This document shows, piece by piece, positions 9,338 to 64,000 of a stretch of DNA of 64,000 bases (position 1 is its first letter; each line of letters starts with the position of its first letter). The stretch is taken from positions 5,176,332 to 5,240,331 of the forward strand of contig OY811972.1 in NCBI GenBank assembly GCA_963681505.1, read 5' to 3'. The position numbers were made by a program, and so were the translations under genes. Source of the DNA: Eunapius fragilis. Its lineage: Eukaryota > Porifera > Demospongiae > Spongillida > Spongillidae. Below the pieces are notes generated by a model. That model searched no databases and was not told where the DNA came from. It saw only the letters and a list, made by a program, of their open reading frames with translations.

Positions 9338-12300
9338 TCACACGCAATACACATTTAAACAACAATGCATATTCGTCCAGTCATGGGTATACACCAAAGC
9401 CTTCTCTCCTGATGCTTCTCTCTCTATCCTCCTAGAGCTGGACCCCCAATCAAAAGTACAACTGTCACTGCATTCATGGACTATAGAAACGGCTTGCTTG
9501 ATCTGGCTGCAGTCTGCTGAGAATATTCTTTTCGTTATGGCAAGTAGTGGGCACTCATACTCGTTCAGCACTGGTTCACTATTCACAACAAATTCATCAC
9601 TTCCTTGAAGTACGCAGAATGATTCACCCGTTTCCAACTGACAGGAAGTCAAAAACAGGGCATACTTTGTCTACAAAAGATAAACTACAAGAAGTTACTG
9701 AGATGACAACACATACTATTTTACCTCTGAACAGAGCAGTTCAACAAAGTCTCCAGCATGAACCAATCCACCGTCTGCTGCAATAACCCCTTTGAACACT
9801 GCAACAAGGCTGTCCTCCATACAGTGGAAAAGTTCTATTCTAGTTGAGCTATCATGACGATGCAGATCCTCAATGGTAGCACAGGAAAGGCCAATAGTAT
9901 TGAGAACAACATGTTGCAATACGTGTAGGGATTTTGAAAGGCGCTATAGCGTAGAATGTGCACATCATAAACAATAACTAGTTTAACTGCAACTCACTTT
10001 CCTCAGTGCTCCAGGCTGATATATGCTCCTGTCGCCATTGAGTTCTCTCATCGTAACATTGTTGAAGAAATGTTGCACCATAGGAGATGAATACAATGTC
10101 TTTAAGCCACCACCACACCTAAATCAACATCAATGATAAGTGTTCATTAAACCGAGTAACACTTACTGGATGTTATCATCTCCATCACAAGCACATGTAT
10201 AACGTAGATGCTGCTGCACAGCAAAATGATTGCAAATATCCCGAGAGGGAGCAAGGCGATTACTAAAAATATTCTGTGCTCTAACAGTAGCATTGAAGGA
10301 TTCACACCTACAGAATGAGAAACAAATTAATAACTACTTAGTAAAAGAAACGTACACACCTCTCTGCGGAAAATGCCGAACAAGGTCCCAAGTTAACCAT
10401 ACAATCCACTAGATGGAGTATTAGGTGGACCTTCGGTTTATTCAGTAACTCAGGCATTGTGTTCTTGACATTGATGACAAAGTTTTCACAAATAGATTTC
10501 CACTCATGATAGAGATGTGGAGAGAAATAGTTGCAATATGCTATTCGAAACACCTATAATAAAAAACATAATAAATCAATCATCATGGAGTTAAAATTTG
10601 TGCTTACCTTTGAAAAACTCAATAACACCTTTCTATCATCACTGCACAAGTAAGGACTTAAGATAAAAACAGACATTTGAGACCATCCTTTAAAGTCCCG
10701 TCCCACAAAGGAATTATAGTAACGACACACATTGCCAAACATTTTTGAATGTAAACCAGACTGGGGAAATGCGTTTACACGAGCAAGAACCTCTTCTTTC
10801 ATTCTGTTGGTCAATCGTGGCATAAACTGTTTCAACATGTACTTGGCAAGCCCAAGCAGAATCGTATGAAGCACTTCCAATGGTGTACCCCTATAGAATG
10901 ACAACAATAACAGTACCAAACATTGTTATTCCTATTCCTACTTGTATGGATCAAAACAATACTTGAAATGAGATGAAAAAACTGAGATCAAGACATCGGC
11001 GGCTATGTCACTGTGCATGACATGCATGAATAGAATGAATAACAAAGAATAATCTATCAAAAGCTTACTAACATGTAAGGGTTAAATCCAATACTCAGCA
11101 TAGGATTGTCCACTGCTTTCAAGCCATATAATGTCTGCATCTCATAAGTTTTTTCAACTGTTCATTGTGAACGAATAGATGCCATCTGGGTGAGGCACTT
11201 TTCCAGTGTTCTTTCATCACCAACAATATCAGGATTACTATGCTTGTCGACCTATAGGAACCCAAGTCACAATCTATCCAATGTAGTTTTGTTTACTTAC
11301 CTCACATACACGACAATACCTATTTGCAGAACTTCCCAAATGGTTTACAAGTTCAGAGGCGCGTGGATTGTCACAAATTACTATCATAAGTGGTGCCACC
11401 ACAAGGACCCTTTCAGAGCTTTTAGCATCATACATTTCCACACCTTCAGATTCTAGCATCTGTAGCTCGGCACAGATAGGTCCTGCCATATCCAAAGGTG
11501 TAACAGAATCAGAGCAGCAAATGAAGTGTATGTTGGTGGGCTTCCCGTTCTCATGTCTAGGTAGGCCGGCCAAAAGGAGATACCAGTTTTCAAATTTATG
11601 CCACTTCTTGCTTTTATTGCCACTAGTATCGTCTGAGAAAAGTATAAGAGGCACCATGACAACCTTGCGACCAGCTGCTTTTGTTTTCATGTGATGTGGC
11701 CTCAGATACACTGAAGTCTCCTGTAAAGGTTACAACATGCACTGAAACAGCAGGTCACACAGAATACACAGCTTACCTCAGAATCAAACCTTTGGAACCT
11801 ATTCTCAGCACTATTCCATCTCACAATACCAAGTGGAGGTGGGGATAATCCATGTAAGGATGACAGGGGCACAGTAATAGTGCCATAAATGATCAACACA
11901 TCATCATACAGTGTAACATTAGCACCATCAACCATGGAATTAAACTGAGCAGCATCAAGCAGGAGATCAATGCTTACAGATACGCCAGAACAGCCAGCCT
12001 GAGAGAATGTAATTAATCAGCATTGATAATCAATGGTTCTGTATGTACCTCTAAAAAGAACTCGACCACTAGACCTTTCGCAGAATTTCCCAGATTGGGA
12101 TGATGCAATAAAACACAATCTCGGACAAATACAGAGGTTCCATCAACAAGATTAACCATGGGAGCCCTGAAACGTGGATCTGTGCGCCAAAGCATACCAT
12201 GGTATAGCTCCCTGAAATGCATGTGTATAAAAATAATGCAATTATATTTGGAGTACACATACATGTAACAACCATCAGTGTGTACTGGAAGTCGGCTCAA

Positions 12301-22690: not shown

Positions 22691-24092
22691 TACATGTACA
22701 CATTATTAAAATGCTACAATATATGGAACAATTCTATGGTGCATGCAAGCAGATCAATTGAGGATATCCAGAGATGTGCAGAGCAATCATACAGTGTCAA
22801 GAATGCTCCTCTACTTCCCATTGAATTGGATCATGTAGTTCTGGATGAACTGCATATATTTCTGTGACTTATGGATATACTCATAGAAAACATCACACAA
22901 GCAGTGGAACTCAACATTAAGGCCACAAGAAACAAACAAGAAAGAAACAAGATCCACTTTGTGGAGCAAGGAATGATACAGTCATGTGGTGTTTCATTCC
23001 AAATTTGGAAAAAAAAGGACAGCAGCAACAGCCTTGACTGGACATCCCTTGGAGGCACTGACAAGAGGAAGGTGCTATCCAAACTCCCTGCACACGTTCC
23101 TGAAATTCTACCTCCGAACATCAGCCTTCGTATTGCACAGCTATGGAAAGTAAACATAGCCGATGTAATTATTATATGGTATTGTATATGTGGACCGATT
23201 TTATTGCATGCAATACAGTTGTACCTTTCATGATGCTATTCTTACATGTTGAAATTTGGACTGGCCACCACAGGGCTATTTTTTATGTTTGTTACAAATG
23301 TAAAAAGAGTGGTTGGTATCATTTTCTGGGAAACTGTAAAATTTCTCTACTGTATTTAGGATTTTGAGAACATCTTTCAATGCATTGGGAGCTGGACAAG
23401 ACAGCCAAGTCGTTGAAGCAAAGGTGTGGCCAACCTACATGTACATGTTTTTGCAATTCAATGTACCAATGCTTTTACTGATAATACATTCAAGCTAAGC
23501 AGTGGATAGCAGATTTTATTGCACTATCCACTAAGGCTCAAGGTTACCAAAAGAGTAGAGTGACCCCATACATGATCATAATGGGTGTACATGTGCCACA
23601 ACTGATCAAGCTACACGGCAATACTAAGCAGTTTAGTTGCCAAGGTAAGAAGTGATTTTTGGAGCATACTTTACTGAGATATCCTGTACATTTTTTACAA
23701 CTATACTGCACATAATATAATATACTTCATAATGGGTACTTTTATACAATGCTACTCTCATTAGGGGTTGAAAAACTGAATTATGTTGCGAAGTGCAGCT
23801 ACTACAGCTCATGTAAGTGGTATCCAACAGAGGAGATAATGCTGACAGAGCAACGAATGACAGCCACTTCACTGTTATGCAAACGAAAAAGAAGATATAC
23901 TAACAAAGACCAGGCATACTGGAAGGATGAGATCATAAGATCTCGAAAGCAAAGAAGGATTTAAGCAGTTTCCCTGCTCTTGCTATACGTGTATTCCCAC
24001 TGCATACCTCAAAATCATGTCTAGGAAATGTTTTTTTTTTTTGGTTGCTTATTATCACTTCCAGTTATGATAGCTACACTGCACTATCTATA

Positions 24093-27751: not shown

Positions 27752-29675
27752 ATTAAGGTCTCTCACCTATTCAAGATCATTACTCGACTCTGAACTCTTG
27801 AGACGTCAGTCTATATACAGCATTGTGGACGTTGGACAAAGAACACACAAATGCAAAAGCACACACCCACACACATAAACCGTACTTAAACCACTGCCGG
27901 TTGTTGCTGTGCGTGGATATCTAAATACGTACGGTCTATAAACTAGCATTAACTTATGCGCAACAGTTTGTATGAACACAGTATACACATCACTCACGCA
28001 CATGACACTATATACCTTGCTTAACCTTTACAACACAATTCTCCATTCCATTTCAATCATGTGTTCACTTCTGAAAAATAATAATCCTATGAATCTGTAT
28101 TAAACATTGTAGCCACACCCAGCGACGGTCCTATGGTATAGGCTACGATAGTCGATAGGCGTGTGTCCTAGTAAGTAGTAACTAACCAGACGAAAGTGCT
28201 TTTCACTCGGTTCTATATCCGCATTTCGCTCGCGCGTGGTAAGTGCTTTTCACTCGTTTTAAGTGTCACTCGCACTTTGCGCGAGTGGCAAAGAGTGAAC
28301 TTCGTTCTTGCAGTGTATAGTATGAAATGTGACAATTGTCGCAACTCGTGACTTGATGTGGCGGAGCTAGAGTATGGGAGTAATGATGCATAGCATACAA
28401 TGTCGGAATTATTGCGTTTATACCCTCTCCCATGAAGGCAAACACTCACACAAACATGCACACACATATCATGTCAAGAAATTTCGGGCGCTCATTAGCA
28501 ATTCCTGGCCAATTTTGCAAACGTCCGTCACATTTCCCGCGCACGCGTCCATAGAAATGAATGGGGTACAGTTCATTTTTTAATACCATAAATCAGGGAA
28601 AGTTGCTATTTAAGTTTTCCAAAAGCCCCATGATGGATAACTTGATAACCTATCACTCTGCCAGGTTGATGGAATTTTCAGCCACTGCTGCTGGCTTCCT
28701 CATAAGGATTAGTACTCCTCCATAGAGATGTATGGAAAATTGCTTTTTATAATGATTTTTTATCACTTTTCTTTTTTGTTACTCTGAATTTAAGATAGGA
28801 AGATATTGCTTTCCTCATTTCAAATGATGCTAATATGATCAAGGCAACTATCTACCAGGTTCTCGTGCTCATAGGATTCTTCCCCTGACTTCCTGGGGCA
28901 CTTTTGGTCATGAGGGTATCTATAGTTCAGTTGAATAAGGTTAAAAATTAATAAACGCCCGTGACAGTAAATTATTTCAGGCCGCGCAGAGCTGGAAGTA
29001 GCGAACTTAACAGCACGCAAATGGGTATGCATGTTCTTTGTTTGGAACTATATAAGAGTGCATCTTTTTGGATTGATACTAAGCCGTTTGAAGTTTATGG
29101 TCTGTCAAACGCTGAGTAGTCCTAGGTCTATTCGATAAACAGTATATGTAAATACGTGTGTTTGCTTTCTGAAAAACTAAGGCATCACTGAAGGCCGCTA
29201 CGCGTATAAGTAAGGCCACTATAGGCCTAGAGCTTTGTATATTCGACCACGTGGTGGCGCTATGAGTATGACAGCTGGGAAATTAACGTTCCTTTTCTTT
29301 TGCTACTTTTCCCTATGCATGCGTGTATATCCGCCACATTTATAATGCGGTCGTTGTATACAGTCGTATGTTATATATATATATGCGGTCCTTCTACAAA
29401 GTCGTATATACGATATGCGCGACAGAGACAAGCCTTATAAGGACAGTGCCCAATTATAATCACGTGTGATCTGACTTATGGCTACGTAACTTTGGATGTG
29501 TTCTTTTTGGCTCCCTCTGCAGTGGCAGATCTAGGAGCGCGTGATCTCCTTGTCCGGGTTACTAGGAGCTGACAGCGACCTTCCAGACCCTACCTAACTA
29601 CACAGTTAGCTATTATCTATGGCAACATCTCCCCAATCCGCTACTGCTTGAGCCAATAGGATGATGCCATGTAAG
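27752..29675. other. Region without a recognised gene
   Basis: A short internal repeat at about 28190-28260 (AAGTGCTTTTCACTCG twice) and nearby GCGCGAGTGGCAAAGAGTG can pair with CACTCGCACTTTGCGCGAGTG. A TA/ATGCGGTC repeat lies at about 29345-29410. No coding motif seen. Confidence 0.45.
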
Positions 29676-29689
29676 TGTTGACCCCCATC

Positions 29690-30140
29690 ACTTTCTGTCT
29701 TCTCCCATCACTGTCCCCTCTCCCCATCACTGTCCCCTCCTCCCTATCACTCTCCCCTCCTCTCCTCTCTGTACCCTCCTCCCCATCTCTGTCTTCTCCT
29801 TCCATCACTGTCCCCCTACTTCCCATCACTGTCCCCTCCTTCCCATCACTGTCCCCTCCTTCCCATCACTGCCCCCTCCTTCCCATCACTGTCCCCTCCT
29901 CCCCATCACTGTCCTCTCCTCATCACTGCCCCCTCTTTCCATCACTGCCCCCTCTTCCCATCACTGTACCCTCTTCCCCATCACTGTATCACTGTGCAAA
30001 CCTCTTCCCCATCACTGTATCACTGTACCCTCTTCCCCATCACTGTATCACTGTGCAAACCTCTTCCCCATCACTGTATCACTGTACCCTCTTCCCCATC
30101 ACTGTACCCTCTTTCCCATCACTGTCCCCTCCTTCCCATT
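29690..30140. repeat. 20-bp minisatellite (CCCATCACTGTCCCCTCCTT)
   Basis: About 20 imperfect units of roughly 20 bases built on CCCATCACTGTCCCCTCCTT. The right half is organised in a longer step that adds ATCACTGTGCAAACCTCTTC. The long Ser/Pro-rich open frame across it is a product of the repeat. Confidence 0.9.
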
Positions 30141-31196
30141 GCATCATGTTGTCATATTCTGGCAGATTGTTTTTCCCCAACTGGTATTGTACTCTCAGGG
30201 TATTCCAATCTGTTCAGTTGAAAAAGACTCCTCTTGAGTGTTAGTGAAGTGTGCATACCTAGGGGTCTGCCAGCAGCTCAGGTTCCATGCTCAGTGACCA
30301 GGGATTGGACCCACCTTGATGAACAGTGTGGCGTACATGGACTGCTAACCACCCTCCAGGTGACAATCTCAAATGGAAAGCTTCGTGTGGTCATACAATG
30401 CCTACTGAATATGCAGACTATGTGACATTTGTATTTGGCTATGTACATGTATGGTGTTGTCACAAGTTTGTATGTTTATGTATCGAATGTATTGTAAAAG
30501 GCCAGAGTGCATGATACACTTGTATTAGAGAAGTAACTCAGGTCTTTGTGGTTTCATATGTACCGCCTATTTAATTAGGAGGGTTATTAGTTGTGGGTTT
30601 TATATAAACTTTTCCCATCCCTGGGGGGGGGGGGGGGAGGGGGGAGATTGTTCCTGGCAACTGGAAGTACTCCTTTGCCATTGTGTATGTGAGTTGTGAT
30701 CACCAGCCTTCATGCTATTGATCTGTGAAGAGATCTACATCATGTCATTTCTGTGCTGTGAACATTGATGAACAGTGCTAAGTAGAAAGACAGGCGCATG
30801 TACATGTATGTAATCTACATGCAACCATGCATCAATGTTAAAAGTAGCACTTGTATTGTTTCTTCAGCTCTGTGTCTGGGTGGTTACATGTGTATTCATA
30901 ACTAGCTGTTTGAAGTGATAGTGCATAACCTACACATGAAGTGAGAAACAAGGAACCATAGTCTAGTGTTACTGCCACATGAGTGTACAAAGCTTTTATA
31001 TTGCGCTGTGAGATAGTGAGTAAGTGGAACTACTGAATGAAGTGCATGTTGGTGATATAAGTTTTGAATTGTATAAGCTTACAAAAAGGATGAATTAATA
31101 TTGCATATAATAATAGTAAACATTAATCAGGAGCCATATTAGTACAAGGTACAAAAACAAATGGTTATTGAGTTTAAAGTGATCTGAGAACTGTTC
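30141..31196. other. Region without a recognised gene
   Basis: A G run at about 30621-30645 and otherwise AT-rich DNA. The stretch ATAATAATAGTAAACATTAA (about 31107) resembles ATAATAATAGTAACATTAAT at about 36228, on the other side of the two-gene element and in the same orientation. Confidence 0.4.
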
Positions 31197-31682
31197 CTAA
31201 CATCTTTTTTTAACTAGGTTTACTACTAAAACTTCCTCAAAGCTCCTTGCTTTGGGCACTACTTTTCCATCGTCTTGGTTGATAAAAGTCGTAGGTGACC
31301 ATTTCAACTTACTATGTAAGCGAATAGGAAAGTCAATGGTACATCCATCACCCAACTTGTCACAACACTTGGACCAGTTGCAAGGGAAGTATTCAGTGTT
31401 GAAATCTTCATATTCATACCAGCGCCCTAGTCCATGTGAGGGTTCCTTTCCTTTCCGGCCAAACAAAAACATGTAAACGTCTGTTCTAAATGATACTGTA
31501 AACTTAAAGGAACGATTAACTCCACATTTTAGTGATGCAGATATGTAAGCTAAAAATGTTGAAACATTATCCAGGAGTGCACGAAGAGGTGGTTCAGGGT
31601 GGGTGTAGCATCTGCAATGGGATGTTGTGATGTAGTAAATTACATGATATAAATTTGACTGCACTGAGTTACTTAATTCCTA

Positions 31683-31720
<38 letters not shown>

Positions 31721-32050
31721 ATATGTGGGACAATGCATTAGGCATGCACACCCTTACTGGTCTGCATCAAACGTCATGGCGTCTTCCACCACCCATGAAC
31801 ACTCTTCCTTAGAATAACCTTGCCAAAGTGCAAGGTATTCAGCACGTGCCTGTGTGTGAATAAAACGGAGTTTAACGCACGCACATAAAATGGCCATTGT
31901 ATTGCACTGTATATTACGACGCACCTTCTTCTTACGCCTTGCCACCAAACGTTCAACAATAAAAAGGTCATTCTCATCTGCAGCTAAATGTAGTTCATCA
32001 TTGAAAAAGCCTGGTTGTTTCCTAGCGCGCGGACGGAGACGTGTCGCCAT
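31197..32050 (-). CDS. Chromodomain protein, 210 aa, partner gene of a putative mobile element
   Basis: Three exons in coding order: 31925-32050, 31758-31849, 31197-31611. Phases join cleanly to 633 bases (211 codons with stop). The start is the ATG at 32050 (MATRLRPRARKQPGF). Residues about 29-72, split by intron 1, form a chromodomain: DLFIVERLVARRKKK, then EYLALWQGYSKEECSWVVED. This fits the family pattern (xxVExILxRR, YLVKWxGY, TWE), a fold that binds methyl-lysine or acts as a targeting module. The remaining 135 residues, with a Cys-rich patch (WSKCCDKLGDGC), match no domain that I know. It is head-to-head with the 745-aa DDE-like gene, 125 bp away, suggesting a shared promoter and joint function. 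A G run (31686-31719) lies in intron 2. The chromodomain call is firm; a mobile-element role is inference. Confidence 0.8.
31686..31719. repeat. Poly-G tract in an intron of the chromodomain gene
   Basis: A pure run of about 34 G, between exons 2 and 3 of the chromodomain gene. Confidence 0.9.
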
Positions 32051-32175
32051 TCAAATTATGCTCTTGAAAGTCACAAAAAAATAAATAAATAAAATCAATT
32101 AATGTTTCTGTTGAAATCGTGCTTCAATAAGTGAGCGGTTCGTGATCTGAATATAACATAACCGATCGCTGGGGC
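32051..32175. promoter_or_regulatory. 125-bp bidirectional intergenic region
   Basis: It separates the two start codons of the divergent pair. AT-rich with an AAATAAATAAATAAAATC stretch. No TATA box or binding site can be named with confidence; both promoters must lie here or overlap the coding starts. Confidence 0.5.
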
Positions 32176-33520
32176 ATGGAGGGAAACAAATGTACAACAA
32201 ATGAAATGCTCGTCACTATTGATGCTGCAGAAAGCGATGAAGCCATATGCTGCATCGTAGTACCTAACACCTTATTGCTTGATTTAAGCACGAAGACATG
32301 GAAGAGCTTATCTTTGGTCGCATGCATCAATGAACACGTCGTAGATGAGGCTATTCTTCTGAACCCAGAATGTGCACGCCTGGAAACTGTTTTGCGTAAG
32401 AAAGCCGGTGTTATAGCAAATTTGTTCCGTACATCCCAAGGTAGAAAGAAAGGCGAGGTTCTAAAGAATTCAACTCGATTTACAATATACCGTGGGGAGT
32501 GTCTGTCTGCTTTGGAGTTGAAGAATAAAGCAGACCTAGCCGAGTCCCTTGACAGCTATGTTGCTATTACTGACGAGCTGATAGCAAACTTAGTTAGTGA
32601 TGTAGAAGAGATGGAAACAGAATTGGCTTGGATACATGAACTCGAAAACAGTGGGAAGACTATTGATGAGCTATCGATAAGTCAGAGAAAAAGAAAATTG
32701 GAGGCGGTGAAAGGCAACGCTGTGAAGGCATTATCCTTCACGGAATCCTACGGTCTAACTGCCGATACACTCACTATGCACACGGCGTCCGGTAAGAGTG
32801 TTCAAATTTCTCTTTCTGATTCGGATGCGCAAACAGAAGAAAGAAGAAAACTAGAAGTCCTGTACTTATTAGACAAGTACTGCGTGAGCGATGCTTTTTA
32901 CCAGGCGCTATCAATGGAATGCGATAGCCTTCCGAGAGCATACAAAGTTAAAGCTGCTAGATCAGAGTTCAACAAAACAGTGGAACTATTCAGTATCCCA
33001 ACGTTTGATGGGTCTTATAGGCACGTTGAAACGGCAATTCGGGAGGAGATAACTAGACTGGTTAGTGTTTTTACAAATATCAGTTATATATGGTCAGTGT
33101 GTCCGGCAAACTCATCTTTGTGATACTTTTCAGGACAAGGAAAAGAATAGTAACGCTGGCATGGAAATGTATGGCTAACTATAAATTCAGTGCCCAATAC
33201 CTTTATGATGATAGTCCAACTTTGATGCATAATAATAATTTGATAGAGGCTCTTTGCGACTTATGAAAAATAAAAAAAAACTGAAACTCATGCAAAAAAA
33301 CAACCCAGAAGGGCGATTTTGCATGCTGGACACTGTCTCATATTGTACATCTTTGCATTCATTTGCAGCTTGGGGAATGTCCAACTTTGTTCCAGCCTGG
33401 TGAGAAGATTCCTGTAAAATTCAGTGGTGATGGTGCTAAATTCTCAAGGACGAGCAACGTGATGATCTTGTCTTTTTCTATCTTAGTCCCTCAAGGCAGA
33501 TATTTATCAGGATCTGGTAA

Positions 33521-33574
<54 letters not shown>

Positions 33575-36150
33575 GTGTGTGTGTTTGTGTATGCATGCAT
33601 GTGTGTGGAAAGGGTGTAATGGTTAGAAAACCTTACATGTAGTTCCTACATTACACAGTTTATTTATTACCACACACATTACATGAAGATGCATGGTGAT
33701 TGCTAACTGCTGTAAAGTGTTTTTGTTTAGGGTGTAAACAATGTTTAATGTTTTGATAAAGGGCGAATGGTTGTACACCTACCCCCTGCTTATAATTAGA
33801 TGTAGCATGGGAAAGCATATATGGCATTAAAAGGGGAACATTGTCTAAGGTTAAAGTAGGTCTAGCCACCTGCCTGTCGGCAACTCACCCTTCTAAACAT
33901 ACTATCCCAAACTAGATTGTTCCTCTGTCTGGTTCCAGGTATTGTATTGCTATATATATAATGGTGTTCTTGGGGAAAGCAACCATTCAATCTCATAGCC
34001 AGCTATTGACGACCTGAACTTTTGCTGACCCACCCACCACTCCTCTTGTGCACTGTTTGTACCTCTACACTGATTTTCCTGTCATATATCAATGGCAGGC
34101 GGCACCCTTCGGGCTTCTACCCTGACCAACCACGTCAAACCCATGACCGTGTCATGGTGTGGCACATCTGGTCGCACACAAGGCAAGCCAGTGCTACCTT
34201 GGTCCCAGACTTGGCCTGATGGGTACACCCTGTCACCAGGTTGCCGCCTGACCCTTTTTGGGCAAACAGTTATCGTCAACTAGTTTAGATGCACGACAGG
34301 GACCTAGATGGGGTATGCATGAGTCAGATATATAGGTTATGCATAAGCACAGAAGGAGCATTCATACAGCATTAAAGCATTTATTACAGAGACAATAGGC
34401 AATTAATAATTTGGCTGCCCACACTCAAGTTCTAACATCACTCCTATAGCCTGCAGTCAGTACATACCACACAAACCAATGTAACTACACACTTGACAAG
34501 GAGGGATGCATACATGTAGATCTATGTACAACATTGTAAATAACTAATTTGTTTCTGAACATGTAGGCAACCACACAATAGCTGTCGTCAAAGGTCATGA
34601 AGACTATGAGACCGTATCAAAGGCATTTGCGATGCCATTTGGAGAAATCAACCACTTATTCGATGCAGGCTGCATAGATGTCAGTGAGAACAGTTACGAA
34701 ATTGAACTGTTTTTTGGTGGAGACATGAAGGTACATGATAGCTAAAATGTCTCTGTGTCAGTGGACTTGACAATGTGTCTATGCAGTTCATGTTGTTAGT
34801 TCTTGGTCTCAATGAAGCTCATGCTAATTATGCGTGCCCTTTCTGCACTGTTCATAAGGATGAGAGGTATGTATAAATTAAGGATCTACTGATGTTAACT
34901 GAACATTCTTTATATGCATGTACGCATGGATAGATGGGATACATCAAAGCCAGAAGTACTGTACACAGTCACCAAGTCAAGAACAATTGCATCACTTCGG
35001 TACGATAACTGGTTTCAAAGAATATTAAATTATTATGATTAATTTTCAGGCATTGTTGTACAAGGGGAAGGTCTGTACAGTCGAGGCAAGGCTCTGTGAA
35101 CCTGCCACTGCTAAAAATCCCAGTTGACCACTACGCTATTGATGATCTTCATTTATTTCTCCGCATCTTTGATGTTTTGATGAGCAACATCATTGCATTG
35201 GCTTTATTAATGGATAGAACTGCAAGGGATGGAAGCAAAAAATACCTCGATGACCTAATCACTGCCATCAGAAGCTGTGGTGTAACATTCCATACATGGA
35301 AGGAGCAAGGTAGAGAACAGCTGAAGTGGACCTCCCTTACTGGTGACGGTAGAAAGAAAGTAATGAAGGTATTTATTATGTACAGCATGCTGTAGTCTGC
35401 TAGTGTATGTTGAATTCTACAGACACTGCCATCTAAACTAATTGAAGCCCTACCTCATGAAACCATACAAGAAACTGTTGAACTATGGAAGGTAAGCAGA
35501 AGGCCTAACTGATCAGTTATGTGGTTCATTAACATGGATGGCAGGACTTTCAAGAGCTTTGCAACACCTTATCTGCTGAAGTACCAATTCATCCGGACAC
35601 TATACACCAGAAAGTTAAGGTGTAGGTAGAACTGAGAACTGTTACTGATCGTATTTTCTATTAGGCAAAGCAATGGATTGATAGCTTCCTGTCAATATCT
35701 GCAGGAGGTTACGAAAAGAGTCATGTTACACCGTACATGCACTGTATGGTATACCATGTACCAGAGTGCATTAGGCGGTATGGTAACATACGAAAGTTTT
35801 CAGGCCAAGGTGTGTATATCTGATTCTGAATGGAACCTGCAGTGCAATTTTTTATATGCTTAGGTGTTGAAAAACACAATGACGATGCGAAGAGGGCGTA
35901 CTTCTCAAGCAATAAATGGAATGCCTCCATGGACATCATCAGAAGAGAAGCCAGGATTGACTGCTTACGAAAGTATGCTACCCCGAAAAGGCATTACACC
36001 AAGCACAATGATGCATACTGGCTCCATGGAGGCATTCAGGCAGTGAGAACATCTAGGAAAAATACAACACAACCAGATACCACCACTCCTCCCTCGTCCT
36101 CATCATCTAGCTCCACTTCTCCTTCCTCCTCCACCTGCACACACACATAA
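32176..36150 (+). CDS. 745-aa DDE-transposase-like protein, intact 10-exon gene
   Basis: Exons: 32176-33060, 33369-33516, 34567-34730, 34787-34866, 34934-34999, 35050-35368, 35423-35491, 35545-35619, 35665-35809, 35864-36150. They sum to 2,238 bases (746 codons with stop), open and in phase, with GT/AG at every junction. Residues 1-295 are helical and charged. Then come VKFSGDGAKFSR (D316), FFGGDMKFMLLVLGL (D397) followed by CPFC..H (C416, C419, H422), and FSGQGVEKHNDDAK (E653). A first Asp, a second Asp just before a CxxC..H cluster and a late Glu are the layout of RNase-H-fold transposases of the CACTA/KDZ/RAG group. I infer D316, D397 and E653 as the triad. The Ser/Thr/Pro tail is low complexity. 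A broken paralogue is at 18640-23964. The family is multi-copy but I cannot give it a name. Confidence 0.75.
33517..33600. repeat. GT microsatellite at a donor site
   Basis: The donor of exon 2 of the 745-aa gene (GTAAGT at 33517) is immediately followed by about 25 GT units. Expansion here could affect splicing (inference). Confidence 0.85.
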
Positions 36151-36239
36151 TGTATTGTGTGCGTTTGTACTGTTGTCTTATAAACACTACATATTTAACC
36201 CTTCACATGATTTCTGATTGACTGAGGATAATAATAGTA

Positions 36240-36380
36240 ACATTAATTAGTGAAATTAGCATTTGGGGAGGAGCCCCAGATCCATAGTGTATGGCGGGTC
36301 TAAACACCCAGGGGCGGATGCAGGGTTTTGGGGCGGGGGGAGTGCGAAGTGATTTTGAAGGGACACGCCCCCCATCGTTA
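36240..36380. mobile_element. Fragment of the GGGGCGGAT element family
   Basis: CCCAGGGGCGGATGCAGGGT at about 36307 is followed by TTTTGGGGCGGGGGGAGTGC, resembling the left terminus of the minisatellite MITEs (CAGGGGCGGATACAGG at 47714). The rest is missing. Confidence 0.4.
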
Positions 36381-36527
36381 CATGTATAGGAGAGTGGGGG
36401 CATCTCCAGGTGGCTTTGGAGAGTGAGGGCATAGACTGCTGACAAACATCTTGAAATTAGTGAAGTCACCTTTAGGAAAAACAGTACACAAATGAAAAAA
36501 AGCACTACTAAGTTACAAATTACGAAC

Positions 36528-36719
36528 CTGGTCCTTCATGAGAGCTACAAGAGGAGAAACAACAATGGCAAGGCTGCCTTCACAACCACGCAGCACGTCG
36601 AAGGCAAACAGGAGAATAGAGTAGTAAAGGGATTTGCCACTTCCCGTAGGGAGAATGATAAAGACATCGTTCCCTTGTATGACTCCATTGAGCTGGTTTT
36701 CACGAAGGTTTGAGTAACC
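36528..36719 (-). pseudogene. Isolated exon of a RecQ-like DNA helicase
   Basis: One 192-base open exon with an acceptor (TACAG before GGTTACTC) and a donor (CAG before GTTCG) in phase 0. It encodes NLRENQLNGVIQGNDVFIIL, PTGSGKS (Walker A, motif I) and AIVVSPLVALMKDQ (motif Ia). This is the N-terminal core of RecQ/DEAD-type helicases, where GYSxLRxxQ is the Q-motif region. A second exon with DEAH or later motifs was not found on either side. It lies just downstream of the two-gene element and is flanked by MITE debris, so it is probably a gene fragment, perhaps of one of the multi-copy RecQ-like genes common in marine invertebrates. Confidence 0.65.
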
Positions 36720-36794
36720 CTGTAACGATGACGTCTAAGTCCATATTGTATCAAGTAGCGTAATTCAACAATCCAAAGTATGGAATTCAAATAA

Positions 36795-36956
36795 TTACGT
36801 TACCCACATTCCAATATTCTGATTGGACGCGCCAACATTCCGGCGCACAGAACAACTTTCTTCGACCTATTGGCCAGACCCACTACATAGAATTATACAT
36901 TATGCGATAATGCTTACGTAAGCGTGGGTCTGGGTACGAGACTATTGCGCCCTCTC

Positions 36957-36989
<33 letters not shown>

Positions 36990-37025
36990 TGACACCCCGT
37001 TTAGAAAAATTTGTGTACCGCCCCT
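36795..37025. mobile_element. Relic ends of the TAGTCTCG MITE and of a C-rich element
   Basis: The right arm of the TAGTCTCGTACC family is recognisable at about 36880-36946 (CTTACGTAAGCGTGGGTCTG then GGTACGAGACTA). It is followed by a C run (36958-36989) and CCGTTTAGAAAAATTTGTGT then ACCGCCCCTG, an end of a GGGGCGG-type element. 37026-37690 holds nothing else recognised. Confidence 0.55.
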
Positions 37026-37690
37026 GAATACTACTACTTGGAGTCTGTGTTTATGGCCCACCGATAAAATCGTAAGATACATCTTGGCGCCGTGTTTGAG
37101 GTGAAGGTGGCCCCCCTGGCGAATATACCTTATTGGAAAACAACCTTTCTCGACTTCAGTCGGAGTAGGCCAATATGAATAAACGGCTCGTATCCTTGTG
37201 TAATAAAATCCAAAAGGACGCGCACCGCCAAGAGAAGATCTGTTCACACGCCAGTAGTAGTAACGCCTAACGATACATACGATATCCGGCGGATTAACAA
37301 TAACTTAGTCAAATAACAGATCATGTGACCTCTGGAACAGTTAATGGCAGGGGGACGAGTTACAATCTAACTCGGTAGGACTGACGCGCATGCGTATGGT
37401 TAGATCACTAAAATCGACGATAGCCTTAGTTTGGCAGGATTTATGTAAAAGCAATGGCCTCACCTAACTTTCCTACCATACAGACGTACAATGAATTAAT
37501 TAAAAGGCGAAAATATTAACATATTTTTAAAAATTAATTAGCTGTTTTAATAACGTGATAAATCTCTAAAGTGTCTGGTGAGTTTAATGGTGAAATCAGA
37601 ATTTTTAAATCCCAATTCTAAGTCTAGTTATACACTAATGACCAAAATTTCTTGACATGTAAACACATGTACACATGAACTGACACAATA

Positions 37691-37981
37691 CAAGTAACTA
37701 AAAACATTCTCTACGAGAACGTTGGTGGTTTATACGATTTGAAGGCAATTGGTGTTGTAAAAAGCAAGGAAACAAGGTCTTATCATAAGGAAAAATGTAA
37801 TAGTCCTATATTTACATTAGCACATTTCTGGGGCATAGTGTTGTTTCTGCATGGGCTAAATATAGGACTGTTAACATTTTTCCTTCTGATAAGACCATGT
37901 TTCCTTGCTTTACGCACCACCAATTGCCTTCATATCCTATATCCCACCAACGTTCTCGTAGAGAATGTTTTTAGTTACTTG
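37691..37981. mobile_element. Long-hairpin MITE, copy H4
   Basis: A 291-bp inverted repeat from CAAGTAACTAAAAACATTCT to AGAATGTTTTTAGTTACTTG. It contains TTCTCTACGAGAACGTTGGT, GTGTTGTAAAAAGCAAGGAA and its inverse CTTGTTTCCTTGC-like arm. The base that differs from H2 in the outer arm (AACT versus AAAT) is changed on both arms. Confidence 0.9.
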
Positions 37982-38449
37982 TTTCATTGAGTTATTCACA
38001 CCCAAATCAGAAAGTCTGAATCAACATTACTTCACAAGCTCACCTTTACACTTTATTATTATTATTACTATTTATTGGTGGTGTGTAATGTATAATTTTT
38101 TCACATTAAAGCAAATACAATAATGCTGACGACTAACACACATGCAAATAGCATGGATAATAATCATCTCCGAAGTTTTGTCAGTAAAACCTTGTAGTAT
38201 TGAAATGGGAATATCCCTTTAAGAGCATAATGGAGAGAATAGACACACATAATACTAACAGGTTACCCAGGTTACCCGTTATACACCACGTACCACCAGA
38301 GTAGTCCTTGTACACATCAATAACATCCTTGGACAGAGCGGTACAGGTGAGTGTCAGAAGCAAATGGTTATAGCATCATTTTTCAGACATCACACCAACA
38401 CATGCCATGGTGAAACCTTCAATAGAAGGCCAAATTATCATAGTTGTAC

Positions 38450-55639: not shown

Positions 55640-58261
55640 TGCAGCATGCTAACATCTTAAAAGGGTTACATGTAGTGTTGTAAGCACACTGGAAAGTTGC
55701 ACAAACATGCGTTCGCGGCAACGTACAATATGATATCTGGGGACGAGTCAAAATCTGGGGTATGCCTTGGGCATCGGCGAAAAATTTTCATAGTATGTAG
55801 ATTTATAGCGTTTATAAATACTTCCTTTTACAGTACCTCAAAAATAATGGTAGTCTTTATAAATTAAGAGTTAAACTTTGTTAACGTATAAGGTACTCAA
55901 AGGTAAGAAATGTTCTTAAAAAGTTGCAAAGCTATGTTATACGGGCAGTGCTTAACCACCTAATAACGTTTGACGTGAGTTGGCTTCATGAATATCACGT
56001 GCCATATTAAAACACATAGGCTGTTGGATGACATCTTGGGCAATATTTGGCGGGCATGAACCAAAGTTCGTGAAATTTGAAATCCATATAGATTAAGACC
56101 TGTGGAGTAGCTTAATCTGATCGGTTTCCCGGTACGTCTAAAAGTTCTACCAAACCTAAAGGTACATATTTTTTCTACGCGCCAGAAATTTAGAATAAAA
56201 CATTTCAAATGAACCAGAGCTGTATCATAGCATAGACAATGTATCGACATACCGATAAATCCAGAAACAGTCCACAACAGCAATCAAACGAACACAAACC
56301 AGCTTTCACTCGAATATAATGCATCTGAACAATTTGCAACCCGCGTCACAATTGTTACTTGTTATTGGAACACCAATTTTTCGGTACTCGTACGTGAAAT
56401 ATGCCGGTACCTAATGAGAGTAGCCCGTCAGCGGGAGACAGTGCAAGAACAGCAAGAAATACTTCGAGAAGCTGCAGACTCTAAAGATTTAGATTCTACT
56501 ATGATCCAATACAAGCAACAGCTAAAAAAAACTGGGCAAAGTTACCTCAGTAGATGTCAGTGTATTAAATGCCAAAAAATAGCATTTAGCCCTTCTGTGT
56601 CCATTAAAACAAGTGGAACAGCTAAATACAAGCAGTGCAGAGAGAGAAGTTGAAGAGGAGCTGTTTATTGAAGGAATTGGTGATGAAGACGAAAACACAG
56701 CATGGTTTGCATTGTTACAGCTTAAGGGCAAGACAGTGCAATTTAAACTGGACACTGCATGGTTCAGAAGTCATGCACCGTTATTTCCGACAACACATTT
56801 AAGACCCTTCGGTGTCATGAGTAGAAGACTTCATCCAAAATTCTGTATGGACCTGCAAACAACCGTTAGATGTTATGGGGCAGTTTGTGGCCAAAATCAC
56901 ACACAATCACTGGAACCAATCTTTGTCATGAGAGGACTGAACTCAAACTTACTTGGCTTACCAGCAATTAGAGCTTTGCAGTTAGTTGCAAGAACTGATG
57001 CAATCAGTCAGTATGAGGAACAGATCCATCAGAAATATCCACACTTATTCATTGGATTGGAAACACTAGGACCAGAGTACACTATCAAGTTAAAGGCTAA
57101 TGCCAAGCCAAATGCACTGAGTACGCCCAGAAGTGTCCCGCAACCATTGAAAGACAAAGTCAAGAAAGAACTTGATAGGATGGAAATCATGGGTGCTATA
57201 TCCAGAGTAGATGATCATTCTGATTGGTGCGTTGGAATGCATAGTTGTGGTGTTTTAAAAGGGATCTGAATCTGTCCGTATATCTATGGATTTGAGGCCT
57301 TTGAACGAGAGCGTGCTGAGGGAAAATTTCCATCTCCCCAATGTTGATGAGAACCTAGCACAATTGAGTGGAGCCACTATATTTAGCAAACCTGACGCAA
57401 ATTGTGGCTTCTGGCAAATTCCACTTGCTAAGTATGTTCAGCTCCTCACGAAATTCATAACACCTTTTGGTAGATACTGATGCACCAAACGTCCTATTGG
57501 CATTTCATGTGCTCCTGAGCTGTTTCAGAAGAGGATGAGTGGTATCCTTCAGGATATAGAAGAAAAACTCTGCCAGATGGATGATGTGCTGGTATTCGGC
57601 AGTAGTCAAGAGGAGCATGACAACCGACTTGAAGCAGTATTAAAGAGAGTTGAGGAAGCAGGTATGACATCAAACTCTGACAAATGTGCCTTTTCAAGAC
57701 ACCAAATCGAATTCCTTGAGCATATAGTGGACCAGAGAGAAATTCAAGCAGATCCTAAGAAGACATCTGCCATCCTGAAAATGCCAACACGAAAGGATAT
57801 TGCATAGCTACGGCGTTTTTTAGGCATGGTGAATCAATTTGGAAAGTTTTCACCCCATATTGCTGAGATCACTAAACCTCTGAGGGAGCGTTTGAGTTCA
57901 CAAAACTGCTGGTTATGGGGCTCTAAACATGACGAGGCCTTCTTGAAGTTAAAGGAGGTAACCAAACCATCATTTCTTGCTCACTACAACCCTCAGTGTA
58001 AAGTCAGAATATCAGCAGATGCATCATCTTTTGGTCTGGGTGCAGCTCTATTGCAAAAAGAAAACAGTGAGTGGAGACCAGTTTCATTTGCATCAAGACG
58101 GATAACGGAGACAGAGCAACGCTATGCGCAAACAGAAAAAGAGGCGCTTGTTATCGTTTAGGCATGCGATAAATTCTCGTGTTTTGTGATTGGTAAGAGA
58201 TTTGGAATTGAGACAGATCACAAACCATTAGTGCCACTGCTGACATCTAAACGCCTTGATA

Positions 58262-61011: not shown

Positions 61012-64000
61012 ACAACAATGAATGCAACACTAACAATGGTGGCTGTTCTCAAATGTGCATGAACACTAATGGAAGTTACATATGCTTGTGTCATTCTGGC
61101 TATCTTCTGGATGCTAATAACCGCTCATGCAATGGTAAGTGATTCCCTTCAATGTCATGACGAAAATTATTCATCTCTGCATCAGACATCAATGAATGCA
61201 ACACTAACATTGGTGGCTGTTCTCAAATGTGCATGAATACTAATGGAAGTTTCATCTGCTCGTGTCTATATGGCTTTGTGAAGGATGCTAATAACCAATC
61301 ATGCACTGGTAAGGGGTGTGTTTGAATGTCATGTTGAAAATACTCATCTCCACATCAGACATCAATGAATGCAACACTAACAATGGTGACTGTTCTCAAA
61401 TATGCACGAACACTAATGGAAGTTACATCTGCTTGTGTCAATCTGGTTATCTTCTGGATGCTAATAACCACTCATGCAATGGTAAGTGTGATGTGAGTGT
61501 TCAAGTAGAAATTATTCACCTACCCAATTCATTTCATGCAGATATCAATGAATGCAACACTAACAATGGTGGCTGTTCTCAGATGTGCACGAACACTAAT
61601 GGAAGTTTCATCTGCTCATGTCAAAGTGGTTATCTTTTAGATGCAAATAGCCGCTCATGCAATGGTAAGTGTGTTTGATTGTTCATGCAGAAATAATTCT
61701 CTAGCCCAATGCACTTCATGCAGACATCAATGAATGCAACACAAACAAAGATGGCTGTTCTCAATTGTGCGTGAACACTAATGGAAGTTTCATCTGCTCG
61801 TGTCTAAGTGGCTTTGTGATGGATGCTAATAACCAATCATGCACTGGTAAGGGGTGTGTTTGAATGTCATGTTGAATGTATTCATCTCTGCATCAGACAT
61901 CAATGAATGCAACACTAACAATGGTGGCTGTTGTCAAATGTGCATGAACACTAATGGAAGTTACATCTGTTTGTGTCATTCTGGCTATCTTCTGGATCCC
62001 AATAACCGCTCATGCAATGGTAAGGGAAGCGTTTAAATGTCATGAAGAAAATTATTCATCTCCGCATCAGACATCAATGAATGCAACACTAACAATGGTG
62101 GCTGTTCTCAAATGTGCACGAACACTTATGGAAGTTACATCTGCTTGTGTCAATCTGGTTATCTTCTGGATGCTAATAACCGCTCATGCAATGGTAAGGG
62201 AAGTGCTTGAATGTCATGATGAAAATTATTCATCTCCTCATCAGATATCAATGAATGCAACACTAACAATGGTGGCTGTTCTCAGATGTGCACGAACACT
62301 AATGGAAGTTTCATCTGCTCATGTCAAAGTGGTTATCTTTTAGATGCAAATAGCTGCTCATGCAATGGTAAGAGTAGTTTGAGTGTTCATGTCGAAATTA
62401 TTCACCTGCCCAATGCACTTCATGCAGACATCAATGAATGCAACACTAACAATGGTGGCTGTTCTCAAATGTGCGTGAACACTAATGGAAGTTTCATGTG
62501 CTCGTGTTTAAGTGGCTTTGTGATGGATGCTAATAATCAATCATGCACTGGTAAGGGGTGTGTTTGAATGTCATGTAGAACTTATTCATCTCCACATCAG
62601 ACATCAATGAATGCGACACTAACAATGGTGGCTGTTCTGAAATGTGCATGAACACTAATGGAAGTTACATCTGTTTGTGTCATTCTGGTTATCTTCTGGA
62701 TGCTAATAACCGCTCATGCAATGGTAAGGGAAGCGTTTGAATGTCATGATGAAAATTATTCATCTCCTCATCAGATATCAATGAATGCAACACTCACAAT
62801 GGTGGCTGTTCTCAAATGTGCACGAACACTAATGGAAGTTTCATCTGCTCATGTCAAAGTGGTTATCTTTTAGATGCAAATAGCCACTCATGCAATGGTA
62901 AGTTTGGTTTGAGTGTTCATGTCGAAATTATTCACCTGCCCAATGTACTTCCTGCAGACATCAATGAATGCAACACTAACAATGGTGGCTGTTCTCAAAT
63001 GTGCGTGAACACTAATGAAAGTTTCATGTGCTCGTGTTTAAGTGGCTTTGTGATGGATGCTAATAATCAATCATGCACTGGTAAGGGGTGTGTTTGAATG
63101 TCATGTAGAACTTATTCATCTCCACATCAGACATCAATGAATGTGACACTAACAATGGTGGCTGTTCTGAAATGTGCATGAACACTAATGGAAGTTACAT
63201 CTGTTTGTGTCATTCTGGCTATCTTCTGGAACCTAATAACCGCTCATGCAATGGTAAGGGAAGCGTTTACATGTCATGACGAAAATTATTCATCTCCGCA
63301 TCAGACATCAATGAATGCAACACTAACAATGGTGGCTGTTCTCAACTGTGCACGAACACTTATGGAAGTTACATCTGCTTGTGTCAATCAGGTTATCTTC
63401 TGGATGCTAATAACCGCTCATGCAATGGTAAGGGAAGCGTTTGAATGTCATGAAGAAAATTATTCATCTCCCCATCAGATATCAATGAATGCAACACTAA
63501 CAATGGTGGCTGTTCTCAAATGTGCACGAACACTAATGGAAGTTTCATCTGCTCATGTCAAAGTGGTTATCTTTTAGATGCAAATAGCCACTCATGCAAT
63601 GGTAAGTTTGACTTGAGTGTTCATGTCGAAATTATTCACCTGCCCAATGCACTTCATGCAGACATCAATGAATGCAACACTAACAATGGTGGCTGTTCTC
63701 AAATGTGCGTGAACACTAATGAAAGTTTCATGTGCTCGTGTTTAAGTGGCTTTGTGATGGATGCTAATAATCAATCATGCACTGGTAAGGGGTGTGTTTG
63801 AATGTCATGTAGAACTTATTCATCTCCACATCAGACATCAATGAATGCAACACTAACAATGGTGGCTGTTCTGAAATGTGCATGAACACTAATGGAAGTT
63901 ACATCTGTTTGTGTCATTCTGGCTATCTTCTGGATCCCAATGACCGCTCATGCAATGGTAAGGGAAGCGTTTACATGTCATGAAGAAAATTATTCATCTC
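61012..64000 (+). CDS. Calcium-binding EGF array protein, 17 exons, continues past window
   Basis: Seventeen exons of exactly 123 bases start at 61012, 61186, 61359, 61542, 61724, 61897, 62071, 62245, 62428, 62601, 62775, 62958, 63131, 63305, 63479, 63662 and 63835. All have AG acceptors, GTAAG donors and phase 1 at both ends, so exons can be gained or lost without a frame change. Each encodes a 41-residue EGF with six Cys and the calcium-binding start DINEC (exon 1 has DNNEC). A typical core is [23 protein letters not shown]. The conserved Asn in the middle of each is consistent with calcium sites. Introns are 50, 51, 59 or 60 bases. This is an extracellular rod-like segment, as in fibrillin or Notch-type proteins. 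The N- and C-terminal domains are not visible; the ectodomain exons at 50018-51444 are a candidate upstream part. The last intron starts at 63958. Confidence 0.9.
61012..64000. repeat. 704-bp higher-order repeat of EGF exons
   Basis: Exon types, told by their last loop, recur in a four-exon cycle: HSGYLLD(P/A)NNRSC, then [20 protein letters not shown], then [16 protein letters not shown], then [17 protein letters not shown]. Exons 6-9 start the cycle at 61897, exon 10 at 62601, exon 13 at 63131 and exon 17 at 63835. The step is 704 bases twice and 530 once; in the short step the TYGSYICLC exon is missing. Intron lengths follow the same cycle (51, 51, 60, 50). Confidence 0.9.

Follow-up and report, generated by a model that had tools for sequence, protein, structure and literature searches.

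Closest described systems

In the CMCT transposon clade (CACTA-Mirage-Chapaev-Transib/RAG1), which comprises CACTA, Mirage, Chapaev, Transib/RAG1, Plavaka, ESTA, and Lanisha, the transposase is defined by three acidic catalytic residues, the second D being separated from the E by a C(2)C and an H(3-4)H motif, and 5'-CA..TG-3' ends in most cases and target duplications of 2-5 bp are described (Kojima 2025, PMC12730594). For RAG-like (RAGL) transposons, terminal inverted repeats (TIRs) that begin with CACT and a Kelch-PHD partner are reported, the duplications of RAGL and Transib being nearly always 5 bp (PMC7204232). Here, we describe a 9,190-bp element of the sponge Eunapius fragilis that carries a transposase gene and a separate chromodomain gene and lies within a 64-kb window, i.e., the whole stretch of DNA analyzed (C2:5176332-5240331 of the 219-Mb genome searched, whose 24 contigs are labeled C1, C2, and so on). 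We consider it probable that this is a recently active two-gene transposon of the CMCT type whose second protein would read methylated histones for targeting.

The element resembles the CMCT clade in its 5'-CA..TG-3' ends and in the layout of its transposase (D316, D397, C416/C419, H628/H633, and E653), and it differs from the clade in a target duplication of 1 bp (14/14 insertions) rather than 2-5 bp and in having a chromodomain partner. No match to Transposase_21 or another CACTA model was found for the transposase in Pfam at E up to 5. The likeness to Transib/RAGL (ProtoRAG) and to RAG1-RAG2 lies in a weak sequence match over the D-CxxC and HxxxxH-E regions, where the RAG1 residues are presumably D708 and E962, in the presence of two genes that are convergent at most diverged loci here, and in a partner with a histone reader (a chromodomain here, PHD in RAG2).

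Other systems share single traits with the element. In chromoviruses (chromodomain-bearing Gypsy retrotransposons), a chromodomain also occurs within a mobile element and has been reported to direct integration to heterochromatin; there, however, it is fused to the retrotransposon integrase, whereas here a DNA transposon encodes it in a gene of its own. In fungal KDZ, Plavaka, and EnSpm elements with TET/JBP genes, which are DNA transposons, the transposase is likewise accompanied by an accessory gene related to chromatin, and the transposon-borne TET/JBP enzymes are thought to keep copies expressed; these are DNA-methylation enzymes that moved between transposon lineages, in contrast to a histone-reader-like protein within one family of loci. 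PIF/Harbinger (PHIS) elements are also two-gene DNA transposons, and in a brown alga, the two genes are tail-to-tail (PMC12477816). The duplications of PHIS elements are given as none or 1-4 bp (PMC10045372); therefore, a duplication of a single base pair has precedents. The present element differs from them in its CMCT-type C(2)C/H(4)H and in a partner without a Myb/SANT match, and no Harbinger-type match to the transposase was found in Pfam at E up to 5. Zisupton (KDZ), with a duplication stated as 8 bp (PMC12730594) against 1 bp here and with no KDZ match listed from Pfam, was rejected. Academ, for which a 3-4 or 9-10 bp duplication and a nuclease or helicase gene are given (PMC10045372), was rejected as well, as the duplication is 1 bp and a helicase is present only as a fragment, which the copies on C10 and C19 do not carry.

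Within the open-access literature (Repbase and subscription journals were outside this scope), we recognized no DNA transposon with a separate chromodomain gene and no chromodomain transposase, and for a 1-bp target site duplication, only LINE-1. A search for relatives by pattern gave 52 matches in viral contigs and 55 in genome contigs, none of them confirmed, and no match in phage records. By motif and ends, the element is CMCT-like, outside the duplication length stated for the clade and with a new kind of partner; a Repbase entry for it may exist.

The element, its ends, and its copies

The original prediction, made from the window sequence, saw only a pair of genes and proposed that they form a mobile element. 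This was borne out by aligning copies: the pair lies within an element nearly twice its length (28470..37659, + strand), which has inverted ends, sits at different sites, and is flanked by a target duplication. On the left, the boundary is set by the start of homology in the copies on C16, C12, and C19; on the right, it is set by the end of homology in those on C12, C19, and C10. The TIRs are 15 bp long (CATGTCAAGAAATTT at 28470..28484, + strand, and its reverse complement at 37645..37659, - strand), and in the window subfamily and its derivatives, the termini read CATG...CATG or CATT...CATG. The left arm contains a minisatellite with units of ~20 bp (29683..30139).

When the start of the transposase gene was used as a DNA query, 12 matches were found in the genome, and exon 1 of the transposase was 100% identical over its full length on C2 (the window), on C16, and twice on C12, 5 kb apart. 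Identity to the window is 99.97-99.98% for the C16 copy (6.9 kb compared) and the longer C12 copy (8.2 kb) and 99.83% for the second C12 copy (5.8 kb), the C12 place being a chimera of two copies. The flanks of the C16 and C12 copies are unlike those of the window; therefore, these are separate insertions and not one duplicated region. The C16 copy interrupts a 5S ribosomal RNA (rRNA) gene; this gene belongs to a tandem array, for which Rfam gave seven 5S matches within 3 kb, one running into the element. The right part of this copy enters a stretch of N. Older, partly deleted copies, with ~81-99% identity depending on the stretch, are present on C10, C19, and C7 and elsewhere on C2. With its ends, its near-identical copies at different sites, and its target duplication, this is a mobile element, and the near-identical copies, including the one within a 5S rRNA gene, point to recent activity.

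The right arm of the window copy includes a DEAD-helicase fragment with GSGKS (36516..36716, - strand; E=6.5e-10), situated in a ~0.7-kb stretch. Because the C10 and C19 copies are without that stretch, the fragment was rejected as part of the system, and it is perhaps a captured or nested sequence. Separately, relatives of ~7 kb (C5:5646686-5653774, C1:4794107-4800868, and others) keep the left arm and exon 3 of the partner gene (window 28477-31807), and rightward of this shared part, those on C5, C1, and elsewhere carry other DNA.

Target site duplication

We scored 14 insertions, namely the window, C10, C12, and C19 copies and ten further places at which both ends could be paired by eye among the matches listed (eight with CATTGCGAG on the left and CTGGACATG on the right, two with CATGTC ends). 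Outside this set stand the C16 copy (its right part lying in N), C9:2.1 and C9:9.4 (right ends alone recognized), C7 and C5:7.29 (mutated at the left end and without a paired right end), tandem copies on C11 and C17, single ends without a recognized mate, and at least one more candidate pair (C11:7154580/7157951). In all 14 insertions, the two bases that directly flank the element, one on either side, are identical, and in the window, this base is T (28469..28469 on the left, 37660..37660 on the right). Longer identity of the flanks is seen as a two-base match in 1/14 and a three-base match in 1/14, and as a control, the other 48 comparisons of left and right flank offsets (positions 1-7 x 1-7) match in 0-8 of the 14. 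A 3-bp duplication, as found for the C10 copy alone (CAC/CAC), is rejected by the other 13 insertions.

One insertion into a minisatellite allowed the sole comparison with an empty site. Within the 2.4 kb examined, the intact units have TATGACTCC in 27 instances and TATGGACTCC in none, and the sequence at the filled site is TATG[element]GACTCC; therefore, one target base was duplicated. No strong sequence preference was seen among the 14 sites, although in 13 of them, A or G follows the duplicated base.

The transposase and its similarity to RAG1

The transposase gene runs along the plus strand from 32176 in ten exons with an open reading frame. Exon 1 (32176..33060) encodes the N-terminal 295 aa, which have no Pfam match over cut-off; exon 2 (33369..33516) bears the first putative catalytic Asp, D316 (GDG), and exon 3 (34567..34730) the second, D397; exon 4 (34787..34866) contains the CxxC (C416, C419) and is followed by exon 5 (34934..34999), exon 6 with an invariant H482 (35050..35368), exon 7 (35423..35491), and exon 8 (35545..35613); the HxxxxH (H628, H633) lies in exon 9 (35665..35809), and the candidate catalytic Glu, E653, with the stop codon, in exon 10 (35864..36150). 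The predicted length of 745 aa, to which our residue numbers refer, holds if exon 8 ends at a donor near 35619, which is open too, whereas the donor after 35613 agrees with the two paralogues and gives a favored form of 743 aa.

These paralogues, on C1 and C17, agree with exons 2-10 of the window gene in their exon boundaries, and D316, D397, E653, C416, C419, H628, and H633 are invariant in all three aligned members. The acidic triad and the CxxC..H cluster pointed out in the original prediction are as described, and of the enzyme kinds it considered, the CMCT/RAG1 clade fits by the C(2)C/H(4)H pattern and KDZ drops out. A broken paralogue, which the original prediction had also noted, is located at 22742-23922 of the window (+ strand), with 36-55% identity to the window protein depending on the exon; the partner match nearest to it is the window element's own, 7.5 kb off.

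RAG1 (PF12940; E=3.4e-4, 19.3 bits) was the sole informative Pfam match to the transposase and was matched by all three family members at E up to 5. When the single transposase sequence was compared with the PDB, all 15 matches up to E=10 were RAG1 chains (best E=0.012), and the alignment runs in order through the second D and the CxxC and then through the HxxxxH and the E. GGDMK...YACPFC falls on GYDEK...YICTLC of RAG1, and YMHCMVYHVPE...GQGVEKHN falls on YFHKTLAHVPE...SEGNESGN, the RAG1 residues aligned being, as we take them, D708/C727/C730 and H937/H942/E962. At the sequence level, this similarity is close to the detection limit.

The chromodomain partner and its linkage to the transposase

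The partner gene is on the minus strand and comprises three exons with an open frame of 210 aa, as had been claimed. Its start codon at 32050 lies in exon 1 (31925..32050), the chromodomain (aa 30-67) extends across exon 1 and exon 2 (31758..31849), and exon 3 with the stop codon (31197..31611) encodes the C-terminal domain, the part kept at diverged loci. The two genes stand head-to-head with their start codons 125 bp apart, in line with the original model. In Pfam, the protein matched Chromo (PF00385) at E=4.7e-9 with 36.5 bits, over the 25.1-bit cut-off; at E up to 1, the only other row was GBD_Tenm3 (E 0.22), no Kelch, PHD, or Myb/SANT match was found, and the C-terminal domain (aa 73-210), which accounts for most of the conserved part among partners, had no significant match. 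The chromodomain is closest to those of CDYL, HP1, and CBX proteins, and F30, W51, and Y54 align with aromatic positions of these domains that we take to be the methyl-lysine cage. Single-sequence AlphaFold2 prediction of the partner had a mean pLDDT (predicted local distance difference test) of 32.0 and was unusable.

Searches of the whole genome gave at least 134 matches in 39 clusters for the transposase core and at least 77 matches in 57 clusters for the partner, the match and cluster counts of both searches being lower bounds. A partner is found within 6 kb of 14 of the 39 transposase clusters, where random placement would give ~0.1 (57 clusters x 12 kb / 219 Mb x 39). Three of these linked clusters are of the window type (C2, C12, and C16) and are head-to-head. 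The other 11 are diverged (C1:13.58, C16:3.47, C16:3.67, C16:3.71, C17:3.01, C2:5.39, C2:6.65, C2:16.37, C21:4.31, C5:7.57, and C6:6.39, in Mb), with partner identities of 37-51%; at all of them, the partner is downstream of the transposase, tail-to-tail at eight and on the same strand at three. The predicted adjacency of the two genes thus extends to other copies, while the head-to-head layout is special to the window subfamily. With the Chromo model as query (E up to 1), a match at or upstream of the C-terminal exon of the partner was detected at 8 of the 11 diverged loci (four of the eight over cut-off) and none at the remaining three; therefore, the chromodomain is a general feature of the partner. 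With 57 clusters, the chromodomain gene is not the single-copy gene, never adjoining other transposase copies, that would have refuted the original prediction; it is a multi-copy, long-standing partner of the transposase.

Both proteins are under constraint (purifying selection). Between the window and the C7 copy, nonsynonymous (dN) and synonymous (dS) divergence are 0.017 and 0.086 in exon 1 of the transposase (248 codons) and 0.019 and 0.084 in exon 3 of the partner (136 codons; dN/dS ~0.22). The ratios are mixed for the C10 and C19 copies, which have frameshifts or deletions, and range from ~0.25 to 0.42 for partner exon 3 in eight deletion derivatives, each of which has 1-3 indels in this exon.

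Proposed working and alternative explanations

We propose the following working for the two proteins. The transposase of 743-745 aa would bind to the CATGTCAAGAAATTT ends and cleave with D316/D397/E653, a putative C2H2 zinc site holding these residues, and would then join element and target with a 1-bp stagger; this half draws on the motifs and on the products of insertion. The chromodomain of the 210-aa partner, with its aromatics F30, W51, and Y54 kept, would bind methylated histone tails, its conserved C-terminal domain may contact the transposase or transposon DNA, and in this way, chromatin would guide insertion, or access to silenced copies, via the partner. Domain content and gene linkage are what suggest this second half.

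Several observations weigh against this explanation. The RAG1 match in Pfam is below cut-off (19.3 of 25 bits), a three-sequence profile performed more weakly in the PDB than the single sequence (best RAG1 E 0.18; 9/10 matches RAG1), and for the catalytic part of the transposase (421 aa), in which the RNase H fold of the clade would be expected, the single-sequence AlphaFold2 model was unusable (mean pLDDT 34.7). Moreover, 25 of the 39 transposase clusters lie more than 6 kb from any partner, among them the copies on C10 and C19 as well as fragments and single-exon matches, and 42 of the 57 partner clusters, many of them deletion derivatives, have no transposase cluster within 6 kb. The C7 copy, in which exon 1 and the partner adjoin, is not among the 39 because the transposase core is missing there. 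Finally, the mapped ends are those of the window subfamily and its derivatives only.

The role of the partner could be explained otherwise. As an anti-silencing factor, it would occupy methylated histones in the chromatin of the element itself and keep copies expressed, which we regard as a possibility to be taken seriously, if the less likely one. Accessory genes of CMCT elements have been proposed to counter silencing (PMC12730594), the kinship of the chromodomain to HP1/CBX/CDYL would suit this role equally well, and the order of the gene relative to the transposase varies between subfamilies; the present data do not distinguish anti-silencing from targeting. Alternatively, the partner may be a captured passenger gene with no role in transposition. 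The 42 partner clusters away from a transposase and the indels in exon 3 in 8/8 deletion derivatives would fit such a gene, but its retention beside the transposase at 11 diverged loci, with 37-51% identity, and its purifying selection between the window and the C7 copy make it improbable.

As for the nature of the element itself, RAG1 being the sole informative relative in Pfam and the PDB and the resemblance of two genes, often convergent and with a chromatin reader, to RAG1-RAG2 would favor a Transib or RAGL transposon. However, its ends are CATG or CATT (CATGTCAAG / CATTGCGAG) and not CACT, its duplication is 1 bp and not 5 bp, the RAG1 similarity is as faint as described above, and the partner has a chromodomain in place of Kelch or PHD. 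Strict Transib/RAGL membership is refuted because of the ends and the duplication length, and we regard this assignment as very unlikely overall. The 1-bp identity might also be, e.g., the remnant of a longer stagger trimmed in repair rather than a true 1-nt stagger, as CMCT relatives make duplications of 2-5 bp (PMC12730594). Yet one base is shared at every scored insertion, longer identity does not exceed chance, and exactly one target base is doubled at the minisatellite site, so there is little reason to expect trimming.

Returning to a two-gene CMCT-type transposon with a histone-reading partner, we see roughly even chances that it represents an undescribed RAG1-type (CMCT) lineage, with a DDE transposase, a separate chromodomain reader, and a 1-bp stagger, that is an independent counterpart of RAG1-RAG2. 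If so, the pairing of a RAG1-type recombinase with a histone reader would have arisen on more than one occasion, and the need of such an enzyme for a chromatin-reading partner could be tested in a second system. A 1-bp stagger, outside the 2-5 bp of the clade, would also raise the question of how two active sites act on neighboring phosphates.

Other features of the window and genome

A hairpin repeat with 109-nt arms that are 91% complementary (37690-37982) begins 31 bp past the right end of the element. A CACTA-like transposase remnant at 11274-11729 (- strand; Pfam Transposase_21, E=9.5e-4, below cut-off) belongs to a family other than that of the element, and a reverse transcriptase fragment is present at 57481-57807 (+ strand; Pfam RVT_1). 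Elsewhere in the genome, at least 15 copies of AATGTCAAGAAATTT occur among the matches listed in 75 kb at C12:2728113-2803033 (- strand), probably an unrelated local repeat. Near the end of the window, a row of calcium-binding EGF repeats (61313-63801, + strand; Pfam on 61313-61678 only) resembles a host gene.

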